This document shows, in pieces, positions 34,924-37,728 of a stretch of DNA of 37,878 nucleotides (position 1 is the first letter of the stretch; the number at the start of each line of letters is the position of its first letter). The notes beneath the pieces are model-generated. The model made no database searches and was not told the DNA's origin. It worked only from the letters and a program-made list of their open reading frames with translations. The translations under genes were made by a program, and so were the position numbers. The stretch is from Clostridia bacterium (GTDB lineage Bacteria > Bacillota > Sulfobacillia > RBS10-35 > JAJYVM01): contig DAHVAF010000336.1 of the NCBI GenBank assembly GCA_027314765.1, positions 1-37,878 of the forward strand, written 5' to 3'.

Positions 34924-37728
34924 ATGAAGGCGGAAGAGAAGTTCGGGTCGATTGGGGTCACGTTCGACGACGTGGTGCTCCTGCCCGCCGAATCCAGCGT
35001 CCTACCGCGCGAAGTGGACACCTCGACCCGGCTGACCCGCGACCTCCGCATCCAGATCCCCCTCGTCAGCGCCGCCATGGACACCGTATCCGACGCCCGG
35101 ATGGCGATCGCCCTGGCCCGCGAGGGCGGCATCGGCGTCATCCACCGCAACATGACGGCCGAGCGACAATGCGCCGAGGTCGACAAGGTCAAGCGATCCG
35201 AGTACGGCGTGGTCTTCGACCCGTTCCACCTCTCTCCCGAGCACACCATCGGCGATGCCGAAGAGCTCATGGCCCACTACCACATCAGCGGCGTGCCGGT
35301 CGTGGAAGACGGCGGGCGGCTGGTGGGCATCGTCACCAACCGCGACCTGCGCTTTGAGACGGACACGCGGCGGCCCCTGCGCGAGGTGATGACCTCCGAG
35401 GGGCTGGTCACGGCGCCGATCGGGACCACCCTGGAGGAAGCGAAGGCGATCCTGGCCCGGCACCGCATCGAGAAGCTGCCGCTGGTCGATCCCCACTACC
35501 GCCTCGCCGGCCTCATCACCACCAAGGACATCGAGAAGGCGCGCAAGTTCCCCAACTCGGCCAAGGACAGCCAGGGGCGGCTGGTGGTGGGCGCGGCCGT
35601 CGGCGTGGGGCGCGAGTACATGGAGCGGGCGGAGCGGCTGGCGGCGGCCGGCGCCGACATGATCGTCGTCGACTCGGCCCACGGCCACCACCGCGGCGTG
35701 GTGGAGATGGCGCGCCACGTGAAGTCGATGCTGCGCGACGTGCAGGTGGTGGCCGGCAACATCGCCACGGCGGAGGGCGCCCGCGCCCTGTGCGAGGCGG
35801 GCGTGGACGCGGTGAAGGCGGGGGTCGGACCTGGGAGTATTTGTCTAACCAGTAATTCTATGGTATCTCTTGCGGACGGCTCTGTCAAGCCGATCTGTGA
35901 CGTCGTGGTTGGCGACCTGGTGGTGACGCACTTGGGTCGGGCGCGTCGCGTGACCAAGGTATACCGGCGGCCATACGCGGGACCGATGGTCTATGTGACC
36001 GTCAAGGGGTCGCCAGAGCCCCTCGCTGTGACTCCGAATCATCCGTTCTTCGCCATGCACTTCAATGCGCCAGCGAAACGGAAGCAGAAGGCCGGCGGCG
36101 GGTACTTCTTCCACAAGCCCAAGTGGAACCACGGCCTCGATTGGGTGACTGCCGGGGACCTGGAGGCCCAGGACATGGCCGCAATGCCCGTCCGACGGCC
36201 GCAGCCCCAGCCCGCGGTCTACGACATGCTGCCGTATGTCCCGCGCTACGGTCACGACGAAGATTGGATCTGGCCCAGCAGGGCGCACGTTCGACTCGTC
36301 GAGATGTCATCCGAGGCGCCCGGCGCCGCTCTGGCGGGGTGGCGCAAGAGCCCCGGCGTGGAAGGATCATCCGCCCGCTGGGTCGAGGAGCTGCGGTACG
36401 AGGTGCCGATCCATGTCGGTCGGCAACGCCGGTATATCCCCCTGGACGGGCGCCTGATGCGACTGATCGGGTACTTTGTCGCCGAGGGTCACTTCGCCGG
36501 CCTGGCCAACAACCGTCAGGCACGGCTTGGCTTCCACCGCGACGCGCACGAGTCTCACGTGGATGTCCTGCGCTTGGTGCACGACGTCTTCGGTTACAGC
36601 GGTGCCACATTGAACTCCCACAAGGCCTGGCGAGGCACTGCCGTCCACATCAACAACCAGGCCATCGCGAAGTTCTTCGAGACGCTGATCCCGAGCTTTG
36701 CCAGCCGCAAGCGGCTCCCTGCCGAGGTCGTCGACCAGCCACCGGAACTGCTTCGCGAGCTGGTGATCGGCCTGTTCCGTGGCGACGGCACCGTCCTCTC
36801 GACCGAGGGCGAGGCCCGTGTCGGCTACAGGACGGCCTCGGTCGCGCTGGCCTATCAGGTCGCCGACATCCTGATGCGCCTCGGCTACATGCCGTCGATC
36901 GCGGCCTGGGATCCCAAGCGCCCCAACCGGCACACGACGTATCAGGTCCGCCTGTCCGGTGCCCAGGCCCGGCGCTTCGCCGAGGACTTCCCCGAGCTGC
37001 TCGAGCTGTGCGCCGCCCCAGGTCGCCTCCACAAGCAGTCGATGTGGCGCGACGACGACTACGTCTACGCGACCATCCGCAAGGTCGAGGTCCGGCACGA
37101 GGAGATCGACGTCTACAACCTCGAGGTCGAGGAAGACGAGTCCTATGTCGCCAACCGAGTCGCTGTGCACAACTGCACCACTCGAGTCGTTGCGGGAGTG
37201 GGCGTTCCGCAGCTGACGGCAGTCTTCGAGGCGGCGCGGGAAGCCGACCGGTTCGGGGTGCCGGTCATCTCGGACGGCGGCATCCAGTACTCCGGCGACA
37301 TCGCGAAGGCCATCGCCGCCGGCGCGAGCAGCGTGATGATCGGCAGCCTGTTCGCCGGCACCGAGGAGAGCCCCGGCGACATGGAGATCTACCAGGGCCG
37401 GTCGTTCAAGGTGTACCGCGGCATGGGTTCGCTCGGCGCCCTGGAGGAGGGCAGCCGCGACCGCTACTTCCAGGAGGGCGCGAGCAAGCTCGTGCCGGAG
37501 GGCGTCGAGGGCCGCGTGCCGTATCGCGGGCCGCTCTCGGACATGGTCTTCCAGCTGGTGGGCGGGCTGCGCAGCGGCATGGGGTACACCGGCTCCGCCA
37601 CCATCGAGGACCTGCGCACCCGCGGCCGCTTCGTGCGGATCACGGCCGCCGGCCTGCGCGAGAGCCACCCGCACGACGTGCAGATCACCAAGGAGCCGCC
37701 GAACTACCGGTTCGGCGACGGGGAGTAG
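34924..37728 (+). CDS. guaB: IMP dehydrogenase with an in-frame intein
   Basis: The 934-residue precursor is IMP dehydrogenase (490 residues without insert) interrupted by an intein. The host enzyme has the N-terminal barrel ([13 protein letters not shown]), two CBS domains (about 90-210), SAHGHH, GPGSI and the catalytic loop [13 protein letters not shown], the flap region with [14 protein letters not shown], and [11 protein letters not shown]. The intein occupies residues 307-750 and directly precedes the catalytic cysteine, which thereby serves as the +1 extein residue. Translation starts at ATG after GAGGGGG. The mature enzyme oxidises IMP to XMP in GMP synthesis. Confidence 0.95.
35842..37173 (+). 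mobile_element. Intein with LAGLIDADG homing endonuclease domain (guaB intein)
   Basis: The 444-residue insert begins with Cys1 ([15 protein letters not shown], block A). Block B is VTPNHPFF with T370 and H373. Two endonuclease motifs follow: LIGYFVAEG (514-522) and VIGLFRGDG (about 614-622), with acidic residues E521 and D621. Block F is [15 protein letters not shown] and block G is VAVHN followed by Cys+1 of the extein. All expected splicing residues are present, so it looks active. The ends are AT-richer than the window (TTTGTCTAACCAGTAATTC) and use codons rare here, which suggests acquisition from another genome. Confidence 0.94.

Follow-up and report, generated by a model that had tools for sequence, protein, structure and literature searches.

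Results

An intein coding sequence interrupts guaB at the catalytic cysteine codon

The DNA analyzed here (hereafter the window) is a 37,878-nucleotide stretch from a Clostridia bacterium (GenBank assembly GCA_027314765.1, contig DAHVAF010000336.1). On its forward strand, an uninterrupted frame of 934 amino acids (window 34924–37728) encodes the IMP dehydrogenase (IMPDH) GuaB together with a 444-residue intein. The host protein gives a whole-family IMP dehydrogenase match: TIGR01302 (NCBIfam) scores 601 bits as two halves on either side of the insert, and PF00478 (Pfam) likewise matches in two halves that meet at 35842–37173. The N-extein (34924–35841, + strand) comprises IMPDH residues 1–306, including the CBS domains (1e-21), and ends in GVGPGSI; it corresponds to positions 1–183 of TIGR01302/PF00478 and to residues 27–334 of PDB entry 3TSB. 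The C-extein, stop codon included (37174–37728, + strand), starts with the catalytic cysteine and corresponds to PF00478 positions 180–345 and 3TSB residues 332–510.

The intein extends from the first base of its Cys1 codon at 35842 to the last base of its terminal asparagine at 37173, and the codon of the +1 cysteine begins at 37174, yielding the junctions GPGSI^C on the N side and HN^CTTR on the C side. Computational removal of the intein leaves a GuaB of 490 residues and 52.6 kDa, in which the GPGSICTTR motif is restored and the catalytic residue is Cys307. The +1 cysteine aligns with the cysteine of GPGSICTT in the IMPDH of 3TSB; in IMPDH2 of Mycobacterium tuberculosis, the homologous cysteine forms a covalent thioimidate (PMC4594927). 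The initial annotation had placed the intein and its insertion site exactly to the base, and both its assignment of the +1 cysteine as the IMPDH nucleophile and its estimate of roughly 52 kDa for mature GuaB agree with this alignment and calculation.

About 10 bases past the guaB stop codon, some 20 copies of a 7-base repeat (TCGGTGT/TTCGGTC) occupy window 37739–37876 up to the contig end, and the assembly probably broke at this array. Two other repeat regions are present in the window: nested tandem repeats with periods of 21, 42, 54 and 96 bases (CGATCTCCCCGCG...) at 2319–2557, shortly after a tRNA-Val gene (2073–2147), and a 39-base tandem repeat of 3.7 copies at 28668–28811.

The insert has the features of a class 1 HINT intein with a LAGLIDADG endonuclease

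The intein (35842–37173, + strand; Cys1 to His443-Asn444) is supported by Pfam, NCBIfam, family alignment and AlphaFold/Foldseek. Three profiles match it above their cut-offs, namely LAGLIDADG_3 (PF14528, 4.6e-15) and Intein_splicing (3.4e-11) in Pfam and TIGR01443 (intein_Cterm) in NCBIfam. Its N-terminal HINT splicing part (approximately residues 1–116; 35842–36189, + strand) contains Cys1 and the block B motif TPNH at residues 64–67, and is modeled with pLDDT values mostly above 90. The C-terminal splicing part (residues 405–444; 37054–37173, + strand) matches TIGR01443 and comprises blocks F and G, ending in VAVHN. The insert thus displays the hallmarks of class 1 HINT inteins: Cys1, the block B TxxH motif (T64-P-N-H67), the block G pair H443-N444 and a +1 cysteine.

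Between the two splicing parts lies a LAGLIDADG homing endonuclease domain (approximately residues 201–392; 36442–37017, + strand), with PF14528 aligned at residues 303–382 and LAGLIDADG enzymes among its Foldseek matches. It contains two motifs, each closing on an acidic residue: LIGYFVAEG at residues 208–216 (36463–36489, + strand), with the catalytic acid E215, and a second motif at residues 307–316 (36760–36789, + strand), with the catalytic acid D315. The AlphaFold model of the intein, computed from the family alignment, has a pLDDT of 83.7 and a pTM of 0.84, residues 148–191 being disordered or uncertain, and its top Foldseek matches are the TliVMA intein (E-value 1.8e-19), PI-PkoII, PI-SceI and PI-PfuI. 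Profiles and model together confirm the full HINT-LAGLIDADG intein that was first proposed and place it in class 1; splicing and DNA cleavage by this intein are predicted.

Homologous inteins occupy the same codon in bacteria and archaea

To find further interrupted genes, we used a DNA pattern for the C junction (Asn-Cys-Thr-Thr-Arg/Ser-[VIM]-[VIM]-x-Gly-[VIM]-Gly), which is selective because intact IMPDH normally has isoleucine before the cysteine. The pattern occurs once in the window (0 expected). Across about 85,000 species genomes, one genome per species, it identified 16 loci, a lower bound since an exact match is required, of which 15 are genuine; the window is counted in addition to these, as the records of its own genome may lie outside the scan. 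The remaining hit (L015:1035–2531, – strand, Bacteroidota MAG) was rejected as an intein locus: it is an uninterrupted IMPDH that reads GPGSNCTTR, with asparagine in place of the isoleucine before the catalytic cysteine.

All 15 genuine loci carry a homologous intein exactly at GPG(S/A)I^C. Their hosts are Bacillota MAGs, one Poribacteria MAG and four archaeal MAGs of DPANN type, which include Micrarchaeota, Diapherotrites and 'ainarchaeum'. Because homologous inserts sit at the same codon in the genomes of 15 other species, the interrupted guaB is neither a chance occurrence nor an assembly artifact. Counted by exact match, and so again as minima, the junction pattern is present in 11 of 154 genomes of the window's class and in 3 of 87 genomes of the class of one archaeal carrier. 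A phylum-wide sample yielded only 2 matches in 399 genomes, both already known; the GPGSI^C intein is therefore rare outside the window's class. Close relatives, among them G099, a congener of two carriers, have an empty guaB site that reads GPGSI|CTTR with no scar.

We found no match to the junction pattern in 2.9 million viral contigs and no IMPDH motif in 80 viral loci retrieved with an intein profile, where the inspected inteins sit in other proteins; a viral source of the GPGSI^C allele was rejected on these grounds. Phage and plasmid records contained only distant inteins, with 20–34% identity.

Splicing residues are conserved while the endonuclease decays

We aligned the window intein with those of the 15 loci. 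Cys1, T64, H67, H443, N444 and the +1 cysteine are invariant in all 16 sequences, as is the terminal AVHN. The two endonuclease acids are retained in the window and in most of the other inteins. Both are lost in L014 (replaced by A and Q) and L028 (G and G), the second LAGLIDADG motif is deleted in L019, and L020 (156 residues) and L022 (139 residues) are mini-inteins in which the whole endonuclease domain is gone. Splicing residues are kept because the host needs GuaB, and the endonuclease is dispensable to it. Comparison with the congeneric locus L013 gave dN/dS values of 0.20 and 0.06 for the exteins and 0.04 for the C-terminal splicing part, indicating purifying selection on the exteins between these two species. 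Intact splicing residues, a decaying endonuclease and empty sites together suggest a classic homing cycle, which in turn implies that splicing works.

The same pair revealed a discontinuity in divergence. Four-fold degenerate sites differ at 84 of 189 positions in the intein but at only 63 of 281 in the exteins (p = 6e-7). This jump starts at the N junction and stops near intein residue 293: up to that point 64 of 111 four-fold sites differ, compared with 20 of 78 beyond it, where intein and C-extein similarity is at the level of the host gene. The intein's N-terminal two thirds were therefore replaced by, or descend from, another allele. Two other pairs show the opposite pattern, with exteins that have diverged more than the intein (intein vs exteins: L016/L021, 1/241 vs 9/253, p = 0.02; L016/L023, 9/241 vs 32/277, p = 0.001), a sign that the intein recently spread or was converted among these loci. 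Of the remaining pairs compared, three show no clear difference between intein and exteins and two have the more divergent intein.

Intein and extein trees are broadly concordant within one bacterial family, and the archaeal inteins cluster together; the placement of the divergent mini-inteins is uncertain. Judging from these trees, the intein may have been passed on largely by vertical descent, accompanied by gene conversion between closely related hosts. An old, undated exchange of the intein between bacteria and archaea is possible, and recent transfer across domains lacks support because the trees agree within the family and the archaeal copies group.

The interrupted gene is the only guaB identified in the assembly

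The assembly that contains the window (4.15 Mb in 361 contigs) is 87.8% complete, and among its contigs we found no second guaB, which the initial annotation had named as a point to check; the interrupted gene was the sole IMPDH to pass. Among the intein-bearing genomes reached through other loci, the interrupted IMPDH likewise stands alone in all but one, the Poribacteria MAG (G067; contigs C1182 and C993), which has one intact IMPDH and one with the intein (L019). The intact copy could reflect either contamination or a true duplication. The window's assembly also encodes a hypoxanthine-guanine phosphoribosyltransferase, which scores above its family cut-off. Because this enzyme is present, guanine salvage could lessen the demand for GMP made de novo, provided that guanine is available. 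The earlier proposal that GMP supply hinges on splicing thus holds for de novo synthesis and not for GMP supply as a whole.

A separate contig of the assembly (C176; L012:1–1968, – strand) encodes the large chain of a ribonucleotide reductase with at least two consecutive inteins. The one inserted between TFYN and CYVIP is a mini-intein, and the next, which follows AVIQGG, includes a LAGLIDADG domain.

Relationship to known inteins and alternative explanations

The closest structural matches, TliVMA, PI-PkoII, PI-SceI and PI-PfuI, share with the window intein a HINT splicing domain and an inserted two-motif LAGLIDADG endonuclease, but they reside in other host proteins and are only 11–17% identical to it. 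Mycobacterial DnaB inteins resemble it in their position, as they interrupt a motif used for catalysis in an essential protein whose activity is expected to need splicing (PMC6195587, PMC7360933); in the window, by contrast, the host enzyme's own catalytic nucleophile doubles as the +1 residue of splicing. IMPDH has a recognized intein of its own, and in this respect the initial annotation, which regarded guaB as an unfamiliar intein host, requires correction. IMPDH-1, a fast and widely used split intein, has exteins GGG/SIC and a +1 serine (PMC12350263, PMC11766414). It is a natural split intein from metagenomic data, a description that PMC7090010 and PMC11766414 trace to Dassa et al, 2009 and Carvajal-Vallejos et al, 2012. 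Like the window intein, it has Cys1 and class 1 chemistry and interrupts the motif of the catalytic-cysteine loop. The two differ in that IMPDH-1 sits two residues upstream (GxG^SIC vs GPGSI^C), has a +1 serine rather than a cysteine and is split into two pieces, 106 and 42 residues long, that are too short to accommodate an endonuclease, while the window intein is contiguous, with 444 residues and a LAGLIDADG domain. The GPGSI^C site was not described in the open-access papers to which our literature search was confined; it is likely, though not certain, to be new.

The shared host motif raises the question of whether the window merely holds a member of the IMPDH-1 family whose site was annotated two codons off. 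Two viral contigs from IMG/VR provide the comparison: L029:4976–6970 encodes a contiguous mini-intein of 142 residues at GPG^SIC, the IMPDH-1 site, and L030:475–1155 an intein at the same site whose C-half begins as a separate ORF in a split-like arrangement. The HINT parts of the window intein are weakly similar to L029 (32% over 73 residues). A misplaced site is nonetheless extremely improbable: only a cut at GPGSI/CTTR yields a complete GPGSICTTR, with GPGSI-Cys1 on the N side and HN-CTTR on the C side, whereas the N side of L029 ends in GPG and its C side starts with SIC. L029 is also a mini-intein with a +1 serine, in contrast to the endonuclease and +1 cysteine of the window intein. Having neither the GxG/SIC insertion point nor the +1 serine, the window intein was rejected as an IMPDH-1 allele, and none of the 154 genomes of its class has an intein at the upstream GPG^SIC site.

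Two further explanations accept the site but differ on what the insertion does. The gene could be a guaB pseudogene holding a non-splicing remnant, with the cell sustained by guanine salvage or by a second guaB missing from the assembly; the salvage enzyme and the 87.8% completeness leave some room for this. We consider it very unlikely, given that 934 codons remain open, that dN/dS is low in the exteins and the C-terminal splicing part, that splicing residues are kept in 16 of 16 inteins while endonucleases decay, and that no other intein-bearing genome except the Poribacteria assembly has an uninterrupted IMPDH. Alternatively, oxidants or metals could slow splicing so that the environment gates GMP synthesis, as proposed for the mycobacterial DnaB inteins. 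Splicing does use Cys1 and the +1 cysteine, zinc and oxidants can block other inteins (PMC6195587, PMC7360933), and the spread over several related species with surviving endonuclease-dead copies would fit some benefit to the host. Against such a conditional switch, neither a CxxC motif nor a conserved additional pair of cysteines is present, and the 20 residues N-terminal of the junction contain no cysteine; C19 and C390, the other cysteines of the intein, lack conservation across the family; a salvage enzyme is encoded; and a selfish element fully accounts for the patchiness, the decay of the endonuclease and the empty sites seen in close relatives. The sensitivity to oxidation or metals suggested at the outset consequently lacks specific sequence support and draws on the general presence of active-site cysteines, and we regard regulation of this kind as unlikely. 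Were it to operate, one cysteine being used for both splicing and catalysis, oxidation or metal binding would stop maturation and the mature enzyme together, a reversible GTP brake in bacteria and DPANN-type archaea that we think improbable.

Discussion

The reading that we favor, with a probability of about 0.93, is that the sole identified guaB carries a mobile, selfish class 1 LAGLIDADG intein directly before its catalytic cysteine, and that this intein is probably active in both splicing and DNA cleavage. On the basis of its conserved residues, the folded precursor would undergo an N-S acyl shift by Cys1 at Ile(–1), and the +1 cysteine, the future IMPDH nucleophile, would take over the N-extein by transthioesterification. 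Asn444, assisted by His443, would then cyclize, and an S-N shift would create an ordinary Ile-Cys bond, releasing a 50-kDa intein and the 52.6-kDa GuaB. The endonuclease would cut intein-free guaB around the GPGSI/CTTR codons, allowing the intein to be copied in by homologous repair; empty alleles, patchy occurrence and traces of recombination are indirect signs of such cutting. The element would persist selfishly, with purifying selection acting on splicing as the endonuclease decays.

This locus adds an intein insertion point at the residue that carries out catalysis in a central enzyme of purine metabolism; the papers that we searched apparently do not describe it. The family offers a complete natural series in bacteria and archaea, with the endonuclease intact, dead, partly deleted or wholly deleted, along with empty sites. 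Through IMPDH activity, splicing can be read out simply as growth, and the mini-inteins, which are contiguous and have native GSI/CTTR flanks, could serve as useful tools. As far as the sequences allow us to infer, a single cysteine serves both intein splicing and IMPDH catalysis. Two unlike inteins occur in the same nine-residue IMPDH motif, two codons apart, and such insertions at neighboring codons support the view that homing endonucleases track conserved active-site codons.
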